Shown piece after piece: positions 52,808 to 60,920 of a stretch of DNA of 64,000 nucleotides. A model generated the notes under the pieces. That model saw only the letters and a list, made by a program, of their open reading frames with translations, was not told where the DNA came from and ran no database searches. Made by a program: the position numbers and the translations under genes. Source of the DNA: an uncultured Anaeroplasmataceae bacterium (GTDB taxonomy: Bacteria; Bacillota_I; Bacilli_A; Acholeplasmatales; Anaeroplasmataceae). Positions within the stretch are counted from its first letter, which is position 1. Every line of letters begins with the position of its first letter. Where the stretch lies: assembly GCA_947629825.1 (NCBI GenBank), contig CANRFF010000006.1, forward strand, positions 62,001 to 126,000. Direction: 5' to 3'.

Positions 52808-55387
52808 TTATTTCAACCATTCTTTTACTTTTTCATCGGTTCCCAGAATATAATGTTCCGGTTGAACTTCGATCCAACGACATTTACTGTAGTCCATATC
52901 GTTGACATATACCAATTTCTTTCTGTCGTTCTTTGTTTTCGGATCCGGTTGCGGAATCGCCGTCAACAAAGACTTCGTATAAGGATGAATCGGATGTGAA
53001 TAAATTTCATCTGCCGGTCCCAATTCCACGATATATCCCTGATGCATTACCGCAATCCGATCGGAAATATAACGGATAATCGATAGGTCATGCGCAATGA
53101 AAATATACGTCAGATCCTCTTCTTTCTGCAATTTTTTCAACAAGTTCAACACCTGAGCACGAATGGAAACATCCAGTGCCGAAATCGGCTCATCGGCCAA
53201 AACCAGTTGCGGTTCGATGACAAGCGCCCGAGCAATACCGATTCTTTGTCGCTGTCCACCGGAAAATTCGTGCGGATAACGTGATAAATGTTCCGGAAGT
53301 AAGCCGACGCTGTTCATCATTTTGCTGACCTTCGCCAAGCGTTCTTCTTTGGTTTTGAACAAATGGAAATTATACAATCCTTCGGAAACAATATAATCGA
53401 TATTGGCACGTTCATTCAAAGACGCCGCAGGGTCTTGGAAAATCATCTGAATGTTTTTCTTGGTCGACTTGATTTCGTTTTTCGTCTGTTCGCCGGAAAT
53501 CAGTCTTCCTTTAAAGTAAATACCGCCTTTGGTCAGTTTATTGATTCCCAAAATCGCTCTACTGATCGTCGTTTTTCCACTTCCGGATTCTCCTACCAAC
53601 CCAAACGTTTCTCCGACATAGACATTGAAGTTCATATTATTACATGCTTTGATGATCGTTCGGCCGATTTTGAAATGAACATCGGAATCGATGACCGAAA
53701 GTAAAACTTCTCTTCCTGATTTGTCTTTTGTCGTCCAATACTTCGGCATTTTTGTCTTTTTATCCAATTCGAAACGATAAAATTCTTCCGATGCGGACGC
53801 TTTCAATTCATCATATTTTTCCGGACCCAAAAAGGCAGGTAAAAACTTGGAAGTAAATTCTTGTAGCGATAAACTTCTCTTGGCTTGGGCAATATTGACA
53901 CCCTTATAATAAATCGCTCCCCGAATCTTTTTATGAGGATGAACCAACGCTTTCAAAACCGTCCATAAAGATTCGTCGTTATCAAAATGAGCGTCCGCCG
54001 TCAAAGAAGCGGAATAATCTTCTTTCAAAAGATAATCGCCATACTCTCCGACAACATTCGTCCGATCGAATTTCACAACGACCGGATCTTCTTTATGATA
54101 AGTTTCGTCTTTTTTCTTCACTTTGGTCATATCATCGGTGTAATAATGGTCGTAAATAGCGCTGATCCGAAGGAAACGAACCCGATCTTCCACGGAAAAA
54201 TGAGTCGTGATCTTGAGAAATTCTTCGTTGTTGGCAATATAAATTTTCAAGGCTTTTTCCACTTTTTCTTTTCTTCGCAAAATTTCGGATGTGCTGTTGT
54301 TTCCCGGAATCAATACTCCGTCGAAATACAAACCGCCGCTGACCAGAGATTTTCCACTCAATAACTGTTGGATAATCTGCAGTTTAATTTGAAATTCTTC
54401 CTGATTCAAATCGAAAAATTCATCCGTATAAACATCAAAATTCGAATATTTTTCTTTGCCGATCCAATTGGCTGTCGCATTGACCACGGAAATGACGATT
54501 TCTCTTCCGGAATCATCTCTCATCGGCCAAAACAAAGGGAAATTGCTTTTGGAATCTTTGGTTACATACGTAAACAGATAATCCCGTTGATTGACAGTGA
54601 AATTCTTCTTGATAAACGTCTTTTCCAAATACAATTTGAATTCCCGACTTAATTTCTTCGGCAACAGTTTTCCTTTGTAATAAAATCCTCTGACAATCCG
54701 ATGAGAATCCAACAGGGAACGAATCGTTTCCGCTTTGTTCAAATCTTCTTCTTTGGTCAGATCGAACGTATCTCCCCAACGAATATCGAAATTCAAAACA
54801 GTATCCGGTTTCGTAGATACTTCGTCATCGGACGTGGAAACATACGCATTGACCGCTGAGAAAATCACGGGAGTCGAGTGGTCGTAAAATTTCGTCGGCC
54901 AATAAAGAGGAAATTCTTTCATTTCCATCTTGTCGAAATATTCCAACAATAATTCTTTATCTTCGATATGGAAATAAGAATTCATCACATTTTTCGTCAG
55001 ACGATAGACATCGTTTTTCGTCAATTTGCTGGTATAATATTCGCCTTTGAAATAGACTCCGCCTTTGACATAACGACTGGTAGACAACAACGCACTTAAA
55101 AATTTGATTTTGGTTTTGGCGTCTTTTTTGTTCTTGTTGAACTCTTCTTCATCGAGAACATCGAAGTTTGCCACTTCCTCATCCAACAAGTTTCCTTTGG
55201 CATCGTAAATCTGAGCATCGACAAACGAAAAGACCACGGTTTGACTTCTTTTGTTTTTGGTCGGCCAAACCACAGGGAATCCTTCTTTGTTTTTCTTTCC
55301 GTACGTCAAAAGCGTTTCCCGATCTTCGACAATATAATTTTGAATATTTGTTTCATCAATTACCAATATTTTTTCTTGCTCACTCAT
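52808..55387 (-). CDS. oppF: Oligopeptide ABC ATPase OppF with repeated degenerate NBD modules
   Basis: This 859-residue protein is over twice the usual OppF length (~310-330). The functional NBD occupies ~565-859: Walker [13 protein letters not shown] (596-607), Q-loop MIFQDPAASLN, signature FSGGQRQRIGIARAL, Walker B VLADEPISALDVS, H-loop IAHDLS, and the C-terminal HPIHPYTKSLLTAIP of peptide importers. Residues ~21-547 contain tandem degenerate copies of the first part of the same NBD, each with a [F/M]P-x-[Y/F]W-[P/T] strand, a NFDxxxxxxF strand and a GG-x-Y[Y/F][K/D]G end, but with Walker A destroyed. YF/YYKG recurs near 112, 236, 354, 493 and 624. ATG 55387 overlaps oppD by 4 bp. Confidence 0.93.
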   Translation of the reverse strand: MSEQEKILVIDETNIQNYIVEDRETLLTYGKKNKEGFPVVWPTKNKRSQTVVFSFVDAQIYDAKGNLLDEEVANFDVLDEEEFNKNKKDAKTKIKFLSALLSTSRYVKGGVYFKGEYYTSKLTKNDVYRLTKNVMNSYFHIEDKELLLEYFDKMEMKEFPLYWPTKFYDHSTPVIFSAVNAYVSTSDDEVSTKPDTVLNFDIRWGDTFDLTKEEDLNKAETIRSLLDSHRIVRGFYYKGKLLPKKLSREFKLYLEKTFIKKNFTVNQRDYLFTYVTKDSKSNFPLFWPMRDDSGREIVISVVNATANWIGKEKYSNFDVYTDEFFDLNQEEFQIKLQIIQQLLSGKSLVSGGLYFDGVLIPGNNSTSEILRRKEKVEKALKIYIANNEEFLKITTHFSVEDRVRFLRISAIYDHYYTDDMTKVKKKDETYHKEDPVVVKFDRTNVVGEYGDYLLKEDYSASLTADAHFDNDESLWTVLKALVHPHKKIRGAIYYKGVNIAQAKRSLSLQEFTSKFLPAFLGPEKYDELKASASEEFYRFELDKKTKMPKYWTTKDKSGREVLLSVIDSDVHFKIGRTIIKACNNMNFNVYVGETFGLVGESGSGKTTISRAILGINKLTKGGIYFKGRLISGEQTKNEIKSTKKNIQMIFQDPAASLNERANIDYIVSEGLYNFHLFKTKEERLAKVSKMMNSVGLLPEHLSRYPHEFSGGQRQRIGIARALVIEPQLVLADEPISALDVSIRAQVLNLLKKLQKEEDLTYIFIAHDLSIIRYISDRIAVMHQGYIVELGPADEIYSHPIHPYTKSLLTAIPQPDPKTKNDRKKLVYVNDMDYSKCRWIEVQPEHYILGTDEKVKEWLK
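53747..55327 (-). repeat. Tandem degenerate NBD repeats inside oppF
   Basis: The region encodes residues ~21-547 of OppF. Four modules of ~118-138 residues recur: FPVVWPTKNKRSQTVVFS / FPLYWPTKFYDHSTPVIFS / FPLFWPMRDDSGREIVIS, with a fifth, intact version MPKYWTTKDKSGREVLLS leading into the real Walker A. Each is followed by NFD[V/I], an acidic stretch replacing the P-loop, LL near its end, then GG[V/F/L]Y[F/Y][K/D]G. The fourth module (~400-500) lacks the WP motif but keeps RGAIYYKG. The similarity is at protein level; DNA identity seems low. Confidence 0.8.
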
Positions 55388-56499
55388 TTTGAACTTCCTC
55401 CCGAATAGATTTTCGCAACACGTTCCGTAATCTCATTGATAATCTGAGGTCTTTCAACTTTCGGAGCACGAGGATCCAACAGCCATGTTTTCGCAAAATG
55501 AGTTTCACTCACTTGGAACATCGGCGGTTCTTTGACAAAATCAATTTCCAAAGCATACGGATTTCTCGGAGCAAACGCATCTCCTTTGATCACATTGAAC
55601 AAACTCGGCGGAGTTCCCGTAATCGAATACAGGTTTTCGCCTTTTTCTCCCAACTGCGGTAACGATGACAGCAACGCCCAAGTGTACGGATGCCGTGGAT
55701 CGTAGAAAATATCATTGGCCGTCCCGACTTCCACAATCTGACCGGCATACATTACCGCCACACGATCGGCCACTTCCGCAACCACACCCAAATCGTGGGT
55801 AATGAAAATGACCGTAAATCCGTATTCTTTTTTCAATTCCTCAATCAGAGCCAAAATCTGTGCCTGAATCGTAACGTCCAGTGCCGTTGTCGGCTCATCG
55901 CATATCAGAATATCCGGATTACAAGCCAAGGCAATCGCAATAACGACACGTTGTCTCATTCCCCCGGAATATTGGAACGGATAGTCCCGATATCTCTTTT
56001 CGGCATCTTTGATACCGACTCTTTTCAAAAGATTGATGGCTTCCGCTTTTGCCGCTTCTTTATCCAAACCTCTGTGAAGCCGAATCACTTCGGCAATTTG
56101 AGACCCGATCCGACGAAGCGGATTCAATGAAGTCATCGGATCTTGGAAAATCGTGGAAATTCTCTTTCCGCGGATCAACTGCCATTCCTCCGGAGTGGAA
56201 AATTTCGTCAAATCCGCACCGGAATAATGAATTTCACCGTTGGAAATATGTCCGTTTTCGTCCAACATACCAACCAGACATTTCGTAAATACGGATTTTC
56301 CGGAACCGGATTCTCCTACGATCGCAATCGTTTCTCCTTTTTTGATATCCAAAGAAATATTACGAATGGCCGTCAAATATCTTCCTCTGACGGAAAACTG
56401 AACTTCCAGATTCTTTATGGAAACAATCGTTTCCCCACTTTTCACTTGATCGATATCGTCTAAAACGATATGTTGTTTTTTTACTTTTTCTTTTGCCAT
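55384..56499 (-). CDS. oppD: Oligopeptide ABC ATPase OppD
   Basis: The 371-residue ATPase has Walker [10 protein letters not shown] (98-106 region), Q-loop [17 protein letters not shown], signature [15 protein letters not shown], Walker [16 protein letters not shown]-loop [22 protein letters not shown] and the oligopeptide-transporter C-terminal extension [13 protein letters not shown]. There is no conserved CxxxxC-type iron-sulfur motif apparent at the C-terminus. ATG 56499 follows GGAGGGAAAACC. It pairs with OppF to power OppBC. Confidence 0.96.
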
Positions 56500-56510
56500 G
56501 GTTTTCCCTC

Positions 56511-57473
56511 CTAACGATGTTTCTTCGGGTCTAATGCGTCAGAGAAAGCAAGACCAAGTAAGTAAAATATAAAGATAACCAGTGCCAAAATTCCGGATGG
56601 AGCCAATAACTGCCACGGGTATGTCATAAATTGAGCACGCCCTCTATCCAAAACCGCACCAATCGAAACGGTACCGGAAGGTAGCCCGACACCGAAATAA
56701 GACATGGAAACTTCACTACTGATCATTCCCGGGATTTCCAAAGAAAATTCCGTAATAATGATCGCCAACAAGAACGGTAAGAAATTTTTGAACATGATTC
56801 TCAAAGGAGGAGTACCTAACGTCTTGGAAGCAATATTATATTCACGATTTTCAATAATCAATACCTGATTTCTGATAAATCTCGCAAGTCCGATCCACCC
56901 GGTAATCGTCAGGGCAATGATCAAACGAACTTCGGCCGGCATTGTCGGAAAGGCCGAAATAAATACACTCGAAAGTAACATATAAATCAAAAGGCTCGGA
57001 ATATTGACAATCAAATTGTAGATTTCAATGAACAACGGATCCAATTTTTTGAAATATCCCCAAACCAATCCGATAAATGTCCCAATCACCAGCACAATCA
57101 AAGAAGAAATGATGGCCAGATACATGGATTTTCCCAAGCCTTGCCAGCATAGGAAAAACAGATCCCGTCCGAGCGTATCGGTTCCCCACCAGTGTTCACT
57201 GTTCGGGGCAATGTTTTTCATATTAAAAACGACCGGCGACAAGTGATCTGTCCAGCCTTCCGGACAGAACAAAGGAATAATAATGATCCCGAGAATCATC
57301 AGAATCAACAAAGTTGTCGATATAATGGCAGATGGTTTTCTGATAAATACCCGGAAAACAGATTTCCAATAGGAATATGGTTCCGCCGCAATATGCTCGG
57401 ATTCGGTTTCATTCAAAGGAACTCTTTTGAATAAGTCATCTTCATTTTCAATGTTTTCAACGATTTCACTCAT
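56511..57473 (-). CDS. oppC: Oligopeptide ABC permease OppC
   Basis: The 320-residue permease has an N-terminal cytoplasmic tail, helix 1 (AIISTTLLILMILGIIIIPL), the periplasmic NSEHWWGTDTLGRDLFF motif typical of OppC/DppC, and five more helices. The EAA loop reads ASKTLGTPPLRIMFKNFLPFLLA. SVSMSYFGVGLPSGTVSIG is the characteristic second OppC motif. ATG 57473 has GGGAGGG-type site upstream. Confidence 0.96.
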   Translation of the reverse strand: MSEIVENIENEDDLFKRVPLNETESEHIAAEPYSYWKSVFRVFIRKPSAIISTTLLILMILGIIIIPLFCPEGWTDHLSPVVFNMKNIAPNSEHWWGTDTLGRDLFFLCWQGLGKSMYLAIISSLIVLVIGTFIGLVWGYFKKLDPLFIEIYNLIVNIPSLLIYMLLSSVFISAFPTMPAEVRLIIALTITGWIGLARFIRNQVLIIENREYNIASKTLGTPPLRIMFKNFLPFLLAIIITEFSLEIPGMISSEVSMSYFGVGLPSGTVSIGAVLDRGRAQFMTYPWQLLAPSGILALVIFIFYLLGLAFSDALDPKKHR

Positions 57474-57488
57474 ACTTCCCTCTCCCTT

Positions 57489-58643
57489 CTAATCTGATGA
57501 TAATTTGATTCTCGGATCAAAGAACACGGTTACGATATCTCCCAATAAGAACGATACCATCGACATGGCTGCATACAGGAAAACCAATCCCTGAATGGCC
57601 GGAATATCGTTTTTATTCAAGGAAGTTGTCAAAAGACGTCCGGTTCCCGGAATTCCCCAAATCGTTTCCACGAAATAGGAACCGACAATCGCTCCGATGA
57701 ACGTTCCCGGAATATTACGAACCAGTGGTACACAGGCATTTCTCAATACGTGTGTATACATGATTCTGTTTTCGGACAATCCTTTCGAACGGGCAAATTT
57801 GACATAATCCGAATTCAATTCGTCAATCATAAAACGACGAACCCAGATAATGATTCCCGGAATTCCCAAGAATACAATCGAGAAAATCGGCACAATCAAC
57901 GTTTGCGGTTTGGAAGCATCATAGAAAAATCCCAAATCCAATGCCCCAAACGGTCCGTTTTTATTTCCCATAATACTATTGATCAACAAATAAAATACCA
58001 AGCCCGGAATCGCATAGTTCAATACGACGAAAATATTTCCGAGTTTGTCGACAATCCCTCCGGGTTTTTTCGCCATCGCAATTCCCAAAGGAAAACCGAT
58101 CAGATAAGTCAATACAACCGTAATAATCGAAATGATAAAGGAAATTCCGACTCTTTCCATAATGATATCGACCATGAATTTCGATTCCACAATGGATCTA
58201 CCCAAATAAATAAATCCTTTCCAAGTCGCTTTGACTTCTTTGTATCTACTATCCCAACGATAAGGAATTTCTTTGTAAATCGGTAAAATATAATAAATAT
58301 ACTGGAAAATATTCTGAATTACCGGAATCCGGTTTCCTTTTAAATCCATTCTCCCATATGTAAAGAGTTGGGCGATTTTATACCGCTCCGCCACCATTTC
58401 TCCAGCCTGAGCCTTCAATTTATTGTACTGTTGAATATTATAAAAGTGCGTATCGGGAATCAGCCGCAACAATGCCGTTACTACCGCCACCAATAAAATC
58501 AACGTAATAAACGAAGAAACAATTCTTTTGACAATGTATCGAAGCGTCGAATTATTCACAATTCGCTTGCATGTAGACAAAAAACGATGAAATTTAGAGT
58601 TTTGTTTCGGATCCACAATTTCCACTGCATTCTCCATTTTCAT
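57489..58643 (-). CDS. oppB: Oligopeptide ABC permease OppB
   Basis: The 384-residue permease has helix 1 (IVSSFITLILLVAVVTALLRLIP), an extended external loop of ~110 residues before helix 2 (longer than usual, ~40-50), then DBP helices with FIISIITVVLTYLIGFPLGI, the EAA loop ARSKGLSENRIMYTHVLRNACVP, and VETIWGIPGTGRLLT. ATG 58643 follows AAAGGTGG; upstream residues in frame lack a ribosome site. The large external loop could help dock the OppA lipoprotein. Confidence 0.94.
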   Translation of the reverse strand: MKMENAVEIVDPKQNSKFHRFLSTCKRIVNNSTLRYIVKRIVSSFITLILLVAVVTALLRLIPDTHFYNIQQYNKLKAQAGEMVAERYKIAQLFTYGRMDLKGNRIPVIQNIFQYIYYILPIYKEIPYRWDSRYKEVKATWKGFIYLGRSIVESKFMVDIIMERVGISFIISIITVVLTYLIGFPLGIAMAKKPGGIVDKLGNIFVVLNYAIPGLVFYLLINSIMGNKNGPFGALDLGFFYDASKPQTLIVPIFSIVFLGIPGIIIWVRRFMIDELNSDYVKFARSKGLSENRIMYTHVLRNACVPLVRNIPGTFIGAIVGSYFVETIWGIPGTGRLLTTSLNKNDIPAIQGLVFLYAAMSMVSFLLGDIVTVFFDPRIKLSSD

Positions 58644-58674
58644 AACCACCTTTCGTTTTTGTTTTATAAACAAA

Positions 58675-58707
58675 GAAAGGGAAAGAAAATACACTCTCTT
58701 CCCTTTC
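58675..58707 (-). promoter_or_regulatory. Intercistronic hairpin between oppA and oppB
   Basis: GAAAGGGAA and TTCCCTTTC (9 bp) pair around a 15-base loop, followed by TTTGTTTAT. The weak T tract suggests a leaky terminator or mRNA-stabilising structure that keeps oppA transcripts above oppBCDF, as in other binding-protein operons. Confidence 0.55.
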
Positions 58708-58748
58708 ATGCTCTCATACTTAATAAACTTTAAATATCAAACTGATAA

Positions 58749-60920
58749 CTATTTGCCTGCATTCCATGCATCACGAACAGCTGTACGAACTTCTTTGGTT
58801 AAAGCATTTTCCGCTACAATGACATTCTTTAACTTAGCAGAACTCAAACCATAAGTTGCTCTTGCGACTTGATATGGAATCACTTTGGAAACCTGAGCGA
58901 CATATCCACTTACCGTATACCAAGGAATGACGATTGCATATTCGTAAATCAATGCATATTCAGCTTCTGCAAATGCTTGATAACGTTCTTTCAATTTCGT
59001 ACCATCCGTAATTGCTGCGGCTTTACGATATAATTCATCATAAGCGCCAAGTACTGTTTGTTCAACAGAAGCAGTTGCGGCAGTACCGTCAAATCCTAAT
59101 TGTTCAACCATATCTCCACCGATTGCCATCGTATGTAAGAAGGTATTCGGGTCGGCATAGTCAGGACCCCAACCACTCCACATAGAGAAGTCATAGTTGT
59201 TACTTATAGAACCCCAATCGGTATTCTCATCGTTTGTTTCAGGAACATTGCTACGAATTTCAACAATTGCTTTTCCACCCTCCTGAATTGCATTCAATGC
59301 AGCATATTCTTGAGCTTCCAATTGTTGAACTTCAGCTTCCATATCACCGATAACATCGATTTTGATTGGGAAATCACTTTCGGATAATCCGGCAGCTTTC
59401 AATTCGGTTTTTGCAGTCTTCAAGAAAGTTTCCGCTTTCGTTGCGTTGAAAACCGGATCTTTTCCATCGGTGCGGTTGATTCCGGCCAAAACTTCACCGG
59501 TAGTTCCTTGTTTCTGGTTGTAAACGTCTTCTACATAGTCTGCATAATCTTTACCATCGGCAGAACACAAGTCTCTGTTGGTATAACCACGCATCAAGTA
59601 GTTGATTCCGTTTCCTTCACCTCTTAAACCATCCAGATAAGCCAGTGGGTTAATACCATAAAGGAATGCTTTACGGAAGTTAACATTCAACAAAGCCTTT
59701 GCAGTAGCAGATTTTTCTGCCTCTGTCTTAGGTGTAAGTCCGTTATATTCATAAGTGGTTCTTACAAAGTTGAAGTAACCGATATAAGTGGAATCACCAA
59801 TTGTCTGAACACCATTGCAATTCGGATCATACGGATTTTTTACGGAACCAGTGTTATCCGGACCGGTTACATATTTTGCAAATCCTTCTGTATCTTTGGC
59901 TTGAACGCTGAACGCATCAATAACGCCACTTTCATACCATTGACGAGTTGTCGTCAAATCGTTGGAAGACGAATAGTATTGTTGTTCAATCGTATCTACA
60001 TATACGTGAGCACGATCCCAATACTTCGCATTCTTCGTATAAACCAATTTTGTTTCCTGTTGATGTGTCGTCAAACGATATGGACCATTGACCAAAATAT
60101 GATTTTCGCTTGCTCCGAAATCACTACCGATTTCATCCAAGTATTCACGACATACCGGTAAGAACGGTGAATACGTCAAGCTGGTCAGGAAATACGGAGT
60201 CGGTTGAGACAACGTAAATTCCACTGTGTAATCGTCAACTGCTTTTACTCCGACAGTTTCAGCGAAGTCCAAATCATTGGTTTCGTCTTCATCTGCAAGA
60301 GATTTGTAGTAATCTGCCGAACCGTCAATAACGTTGGTAACGATACTAACTGTTCCGGAACCGTGAATCGGATCCAAAACATATTCCAAACCGGCAACGA
60401 AATCGTCTGCCTTCACTTCGTATTTGGTTTCTTCGTTGTTGTTGGCAACCCATTCAACACCTTTCCGAAGTTTGAATGTCCATACTTGCTTTTCGTCTAC
60501 TTCTTCTGTCTTATAGGCATAAGCCAAGCCGCCAACGATATTTCCATATTTATCATTTTCAACAAGGCCATCAACCATATTAGCGTAAACATCGCTATTG
60601 TAAGTCCAGTTGTTTACCAGATAATTGAATTTTTCCTTATCCAACTCAGACTGATAGAAGGTTTTATAGACTTTCTTTGTTTTGATTTTTGTGTCTGTAC
60701 CCGTTTGAGCATTGTGAACGGTATAGTAGCCGTCAGCATCAACCGCAGGGTTTTCATTTTCATTCAACAATGAAGTATATCCCTTAGGAATACTGATTTT
60801 CTTGTCAGGGTCGTAAGAAACGAAACCGGCTTCATTTGGTTTACCACCGCCGCCACAAGCAACCAAGCCCAAAACCGACAATGCCGCTAAACTAGGCGCC
60901 ACAATTTTTTTCAATTTCAT
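58749..60920 (-). CDS. oppA: Oligopeptide-binding lipoprotein OppA
   Basis: The 723-residue extracellular lipoprotein belongs to SBP family 5. The signal MKLKKIVAPSLAALSVLGLVAC is followed by the lipidated Cys at residue 22. The core shows VWTFKLRKGVEWVAN, VKADDFVAGLEYVLDP, YTVEFTLSQPTPYFLTSLTY and WGPDYADPNTFLHTM, typical OppA motifs. It is longer than E. coli OppA (~540), like the large OppA proteins of lactobacilli and Mollicutes. It is the first gene of oppABCDF, behind a strong promoter with an upstream cre-like site. GGAGGAG is the ribosome site. Confidence 0.95.
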   Translation of the reverse strand: MKLKKIVAPSLAALSVLGLVACGGGGKPNEAGFVSYDPDKKISIPKGYTSLLNENENPAVDADGYYTVHNAQTGTDTKIKTKKVYKTFYQSELDKEKFNYLVNNWTYNSDVYANMVDGLVENDKYGNIVGGLAYAYKTEEVDEKQVWTFKLRKGVEWVANNNEETKYEVKADDFVAGLEYVLDPIHGSGTVSIVTNVIDGSADYYKSLADEDETNDLDFAETVGVKAVDDYTVEFTLSQPTPYFLTSLTYSPFLPVCREYLDEIGSDFGASENHILVNGPYRLTTHQQETKLVYTKNAKYWDRAHVYVDTIEQQYYSSSNDLTTTRQWYESGVIDAFSVQAKDTEGFAKYVTGPDNTGSVKNPYDPNCNGVQTIGDSTYIGYFNFVRTTYEYNGLTPKTEAEKSATAKALLNVNFRKAFLYGINPLAYLDGLRGEGNGINYLMRGYTNRDLCSADGKDYADYVEDVYNQKQGTTGEVLAGINRTDGKDPVFNATKAETFLKTAKTELKAAGLSESDFPIKIDVIGDMEAEVQQLEAQEYAALNAIQEGGKAIVEIRSNVPETNDENTDWGSISNNYDFSMWSGWGPDYADPNTFLHTMAIGGDMVEQLGFDGTAATASVEQTVLGAYDELYRKAAAITDGTKLKERYQAFAEAEYALIYEYAIVIPWYTVSGYVAQVSKVIPYQVARATYGLSSAKLKNVIVAENALTKEVRTAVRDAWNAGK

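Follow-up and report, generated by a model that had tools for sequence, protein, structure and literature searches.

OppF, encoded by the last gene of an oppABCDF-type operon in an uncultured Anaeroplasmataceae bacterium, carries approximately 540 residues ahead of its nucleotide-binding domain (NBD), and these residues repeat the N-terminal half of the protein's own NBD in four degenerate copies. Each copy, or module (M1 to M4), contains the beta-subdomain, a dead P-loop, helix 1 and a GxYFKG hairpin. The modules, collectively referred to as the array, occur in a small set of gut and rumen mollicutes related to Anaeroplasma. On balance, the four serially duplicated copies probably form a regulatory or docking arm that is non-catalytic. 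This proposed role as a scaffold or regulatory arm is less certain than the duplication history behind it.

The oppF gene and its intact ATPase domain

The window, that is, the whole 64,000-nucleotide stretch of DNA analyzed, presents the genes oppA, oppB, oppC and oppD in this order at 55384-60920, followed by oppF, whose reading frame is open under table 11 (the standard code). The same operon order is found at a second locus (L021), and oppB, oppC and oppD are present at a third (L020). The genes and the key elements of the ATPase domain are:

52808..55387, reverse strand: oppF, 859 amino acids, comprising the N-terminal array (residues 1-540) and one intact NBD (residues ~541-859)
53570..53593, reverse strand: Walker A motif GESGSGKT, residues 599-606, the sole P-loop motif of OppF
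53450..53767, reverse strand: N-terminal half of the real NBD, residues 541-646, a fifth unit in the same register as the modules
55384..56499, reverse strand: oppD, whose stop codon overlaps the oppF start (ATGA)
56511..57473, reverse strand: oppC, 63% identical to the Anaeroplasma bactoclasticum gene in the equal operon position
57489..58709, reverse strand: oppB, 60% identical to its A. bactoclasticum counterpart
58749..60920, reverse strand: oppA-like binding lipoprotein with the N-terminus MKLKKIVAPSLAALSVLGLVACGGG, 52% identical to its A. bactoclasticum counterpart

The C-terminal part of OppF is a complete ABC NBD with Walker A, Q-loop, LSGGQ-like signature, Walker B and H-loop (motifs at residues 599, 708 and 730), and the Q-loop FQDP at residue 650 stands at ordinary spacing from the Walker A motif at 599. 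PF00005 matches residues 583-735 (E = 8.1e-31), and the oligo_HPY family PF08352 matches residues 787-822 above its cut-off (E = 1.6e-8). The cut-offs of the curated OppF equivalogs are missed, with 417.6 of 800 bits for NF043078 and 320.9 of 540 bits for NF011659; as the NBD is full length, these shortfalls are attributed to divergence. OppF is thus the best assignment for the 859-residue protein, made without an equivalog call, and peptide transport is its predicted function.

In all four genomes known to carry the array, oppD runs into or directly adjoins the start of oppF, and the array therefore lies downstream of the native start. The same junction disfavors the fusion of a separate upstream gene onto oppF. 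Internal initiation producing a short OppF was rejected as well: a methionine precedes the NBD in all four proteins, yet no Shine-Dalgarno-like sequence lies upstream of it.

Anatomy, homology and origin of the modules

The four modules map to the following positions:

55004..55339, reverse strand: M1, residues 17-128, degenerate OppF NBD N-terminal half; z = 17-23 against M2, M3 and the NBD; HMM match; AlphaFold2 pLDDT 84.9
54632..54979, reverse strand: M2, residues 137-252, degenerate OppF NBD N-terminal half; pairwise alignment, HMM and hhalign
54272..54610, reverse strand: M3, residues 260-372, degenerate OppF NBD N-terminal half; most similar of the four to the real NBD (z = 26.6)
53873..54202, reverse strand: M4, residues 396-505, the most diverged copy; hhalign E = 6.9e-9, weak pairwise alignment and a matching predicted order of secondary structure

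Modules are built in the order of a leading helix (xxxEDRxxLL, part of every module), a P-x-[YF]W-P segment that is partial in M1 and missing in M4, strand 1, an NF[DN]V strand, the former P-loop stretch, helix 1 and the GxYFKG hairpin. The preliminary description of this DNA had assigned one shared motif order to all four modules. That order is borne out for M1-M3, with SFVDA as the strand motif of M1, but M4 of the window lacks the P-x-[YF]W-P, S-V-V-N-A and NFD motifs. The positions it gave for Y[F/Y][K/D]G, near residues 112, 236, 354, 493 and 624, are exact, each marking a Y[FY]xG motif. The residues common to all modules (P, P, S, A, F, G, Y, G and K) look structural.

Loss of the P-loop, also proposed in that description, is plain from the motifs. 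A stretch of each module aligns nearly gap-free to 14 residues of the NBD, with every P-loop glycine lost, and a motif search of residues 1-540 of the window OppF found no Walker A (GxxGxGK[ST]), signature or Walker B. In each of the four array proteins, GxxxxGK[ST], the signature and Walker B occur just once, within the C-terminal NBD. A lysine aligned with that of Walker A is kept in M1 and M3 in all four genomes and in M2 in three of them; in the window (M1-M3, 54272-55339) it may be a relic or a reused residue, despite the lost glycines. The aromatic position of the A-loop varies among modules and species. Homology to the NBD fades shortly before the Q-loop strand, and the helical subdomain is absent from M1-M4, which stop ahead of the Q-loop. 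By composition the array is predicted to be soluble, with a maximum 19-residue hydropathy of 1.16, no cysteine, balanced charge and no predicted membrane segment.

Descent from the NBD is documented by pairwise and profile comparisons. Local alignments among M1, M2, M3 and the NBD half reach z = 15-27 against 1000 shuffles, and those of M4 reach z = 3-4. An HMM built from 33 NBD halves, all taken from OppFs without an extension, matches the extension at three consecutive registers. For the extension as a whole, E values are 1.8e-12 to 4.2e-9 across the four genomes; the best of 2000 shuffled modules scored E = 4.4. Conversely, a profile of M1-M3 finds the NBDs of the four array proteins at E = 7e-18 to 2e-15, and the only other match of the extension by tblastn in the window genome is its own NBD (E = 1.7e-11). 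These alignments and profiles place M1-M3 beyond doubt as copies of the NBD N-terminal half. For M4, the M1-M3 HMM gives E = 2.7e-5 to 3.8e-3 (best shuffle 0.067), and hhalign aligns M4 with the M1-M3 profile over 101 columns, its whole length (E = 6.9e-9). The homology of M4 to the NBD half itself comes from profile-profile comparison and weak HMM scores only. M4 is a strongly diverged copy supported by profile comparison and predicted secondary structure. The serial duplication of NBD halves put forward in the preliminary description is thus supported, as are the in-register matches to ABC NBD halves that it anticipated, M4 being the weakest.

The predicted fold agrees with this homology, which rests on sequence, without proving it. 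An AlphaFold2 model of M1, computed from nine module sequences and no NBD (pLDDT 84.9, pTM 0.77), was compared with the PDB by Foldseek: 29 of the best 50 matches are ABC ATPases, the top one being E. coli OppD (8z21). The best E value is 0.18 with a TM-score of ~0.4, and no match reaches E = 1e-3; hence either the fold of the modules has moved away from that of the NBD or the model has flaws. In the full-length AlphaFold2 model, the order helix-strand-strand-helix-strand-helix appears five times, at residues 20-138, 141-262, 265-380, 399-519 and 522-649. Only this local pattern was used, with packing and whole-model matches left out, as the model was built from three rows and has a pTM of 0.33 and low confidence in the catalytic NBD.

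The source of the modules is OppF itself. With the M1-M3 HMM, OppFs lacking the extension score E = 1e-6 to 1e-12, whereas no OppD paralogue encoded beside them does better than E = 1.5, and the other matches examined in whole-genome searches with the extension profile were OppF orthologues only. Because the modules match OppF-type NBDs and not OppD paralogues, the array derives from OppF, which rules out OppD or a generic ABC ATPase as the source. Across the four genomes, modules cluster by position, clearly for M2, M3 and M4 (the last on a long branch) and with poor resolution for M1; the duplications are therefore older than the split of the four lineages. A check for recent repeats at the DNA level found only short chance matches. 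In an ancestor of these Anaeroplasmataceae, the 5' part of oppF would have been duplicated serially and in frame.

Of 160 genomes searched from the order, four have the array. One is the window genome (genus g1); the other three belong to genus g6 and include the isolate Anaeroplasma bactoclasticum ATCC 27112 as well as the rumen assembly RUG12899. This distribution agrees with the mollicute host suggested in the preliminary description. Among 395 evenly sampled genomes of the class, no further arrays came to light. At E = 1e-90, OppF has no match in any of ten further genomes from the window's genus, and the opp operon may have been gained in the window genome or lost in those ten. Close OppF orthologues lacking the array exist, for example one of 553 residues with a C-terminal tail (G016) and one of 308 residues (G224). 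The closest relatives run a matching opp operon without the array, which is therefore not needed for transport as such. In line with the statement in the preliminary description that no account of the arrangement was known, searches of the open-licence literature on long or extended OppF, degenerate NBD duplications and Anaeroplasma Opp returned nothing on such arrays, which is weak evidence of absence.

Constraint and proposed function of the array

Between the closest pair of genomes (dS 1.2), dN/dS is 0.15 for the array and 0.09-0.23 for individual modules; in other pairs the array values are saturated or lie at 0.26-0.40. The array evolves faster than the NBD, with a mean identity of 55% as against 70% for the NBD N-terminal half and 89% for the rest of the NBD. 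Between the window and A. bactoclasticum, identity is 45% for the array, only somewhat lower than the 52% of OppA, and 81% for OppD. Array length is about equal in the four divergent genomes, and 32-46 residues per module are invariant across them, though the modules differ from one another. Judged from these comparisons, the array is under purifying selection and conserved like an ordinary, fairly fast-evolving part of a protein. The low ratios of the single modules, the equal length and the invariant residues together suggest module-specific roles.

Lacking a P-loop and any predicted membrane segment, and with its charge balanced, the array should be a soluble, non-catalytic arm. It would be rigid, sit on the OppF side of the OppABCDF importer and serve as a regulatory or docking scaffold, and ATP would be hydrolyzed by the intact NBDs of OppD and OppF only. 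In an NBD, the N-terminus is part of the beta-subdomain side, remote from the coupling helices, and an arm attached there is consequently more suited to docking or regulation than to imitating OppBC or OppD contacts. The scaffold or regulatory platform envisaged in the preliminary description is a plausible inference. More tentatively, serial duplication of half an ABC domain could have given rise, in a single wall-less lineage, to a new accessory domain whose four non-catalytic units act as a docking or regulatory arm on a peptide importer.

Second in rank to the scaffold or regulatory arm, and a good deal less likely, is neutral accretion. Under this explanation, a duplication-prone 5' end of oppF would have gained tolerated, stably folded in-frame copies with no gain of function, and the copies would have been kept since removing a folded part destabilizes the protein. 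Such a history fits the OppF N-terminus of relatives, which tolerates unrelated additions (DUF975, two apparent transmembrane helices or a coiled domain) or has none (L052), as well as the functioning of relatives without the array and the structural look of the residues that all modules share. Purely tolerated copies are, however, harder to reconcile with the dN/dS of each module, the near-constant length of the array and the invariant residues that point to module-specific roles.

Mimicry of NBD surfaces, by which the modules would imitate NBD faces and contact OppD or the coupling helices of OppB and OppC, was raised in the preliminary description and is improbable. In an NBD, contact with the permease coupling helices and with the partner NBD is made by the Q-loop, the helical subdomain, the LSGGQ motif and Walker A. 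The modules are homologous to the NBD N-terminal half, as mimicry would have it, but this homology stops ahead of the Q-loop strand, and they have neither helical subdomain nor signature and have lost Walker A. Slightly less probable still is that the modules sense an adenine nucleotide or another ligand in the old beta-subdomain pocket; the lysine kept at the Walker A position speaks for such a sensor, whereas the complete loss of P-loop glycines and the unconserved A-loop aromatic position speak against it. An unrelated fold with chance or convergent motifs, or an assembly artefact, has a negligible probability: the extension on its own has no convincing Pfam or NCBIfam family, but chance similarity is ruled out by the shuffle-tested pairwise alignments and the profile searches, and an artefact by the four independent genomes, one of them from a cultured isolate.

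ABC ATPases usually duplicate as whole domains. A half-domain that was copied four times, lost its catalytic loop and came under selection indicates that the ABC beta-subdomain is reusable as a repeat unit.

Comparison with known systems

Like the OppF and DppF importer ATPases (E. coli OppBCDF, 8z21, and DppBCDF, 8z1v; NCBIfam NF011659), the window OppF has one complete C-terminal NBD with an oligo_HPY tail, and it shares with them Walker A, Q-loop, signature, Walker B, H-loop and an oppABCDF-type operon. It differs from an ordinary OppF, of ~310-335 residues, in the ~540 extra N-terminal residues that form the four NBD-half copies.

Long OppF proteins are also known from Mycoplasma and Spiroplasma (NF043078, MMSYN1_0168), and the kinship to unusually long Mollicutes OppF drawn in the preliminary description is misleading. 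In these proteins, the P-loop lies at residues 46-54 and the Q-loop at 405-483, so that the extra 310-390 residues are inserted within the NBD, between Walker A and Q-loop; OppF-half profiles match just the two real NBD pieces and find no NBD-half repeats. Conversely, the window OppF has no long Walker A-to-Q-loop insert of the NF043078 type. The great length of OppF in Spiroplasma and Mycoplasma and in the relatives of Anaeroplasma represents different inventions. A 637-residue OppF in another genome of the window's order (G041, contig 57, 30115-31965) matches the Mycoplasma-type model over 2-648 of 649 positions, and the Mycoplasma-type insert thus also occurs outside Mycoplasma and Spiroplasma.

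Mtb OppD and DppD (8j5q, 8wd9) likewise combine NBD-derived units in a single chain. There, two complete NBDs are present (two matched stretches), in contrast to the four half-domains and one NBD of the window OppF.

The attachment point of the array, just before the NBD, is the same as that of added domains in the OppFs of related Bacilli (L050, L051, L049 and L009); these additions are of various kinds and, unlike the array, unrelated to the NBD. In L050 and L051 (genomes G403 and G196), a DUF975 membrane domain forms the N-terminal part of the OppF fusion (PF06161, E = 6.6e-24 for L050). The OppF N-terminus has two apparent transmembrane helices in L049 (G256) and a coiled domain in L009, and L052 has no addition. 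OppD and OppF are fused in one open frame, of 1335 residues according to the genome search, with a charged coiled linker in genome G072 (L010, positions 1-2559, and L036), and open frames of 993 and 961 residues occur at oppF in G076 and G029. A coiled segment, K-x-KY-x-EEI...DI..TK.RN, is an insert within the OppD NBD in some Anaeroplasmataceae (L012, L013), and in others (L009, L010) it forms the N-terminal domain of OppF or a linker, with blastp E values down to 5e-9. Such varied inserts and fusions in mollicutes and their relatives mark the Opp ATPases as a hotspot for accessory domains.
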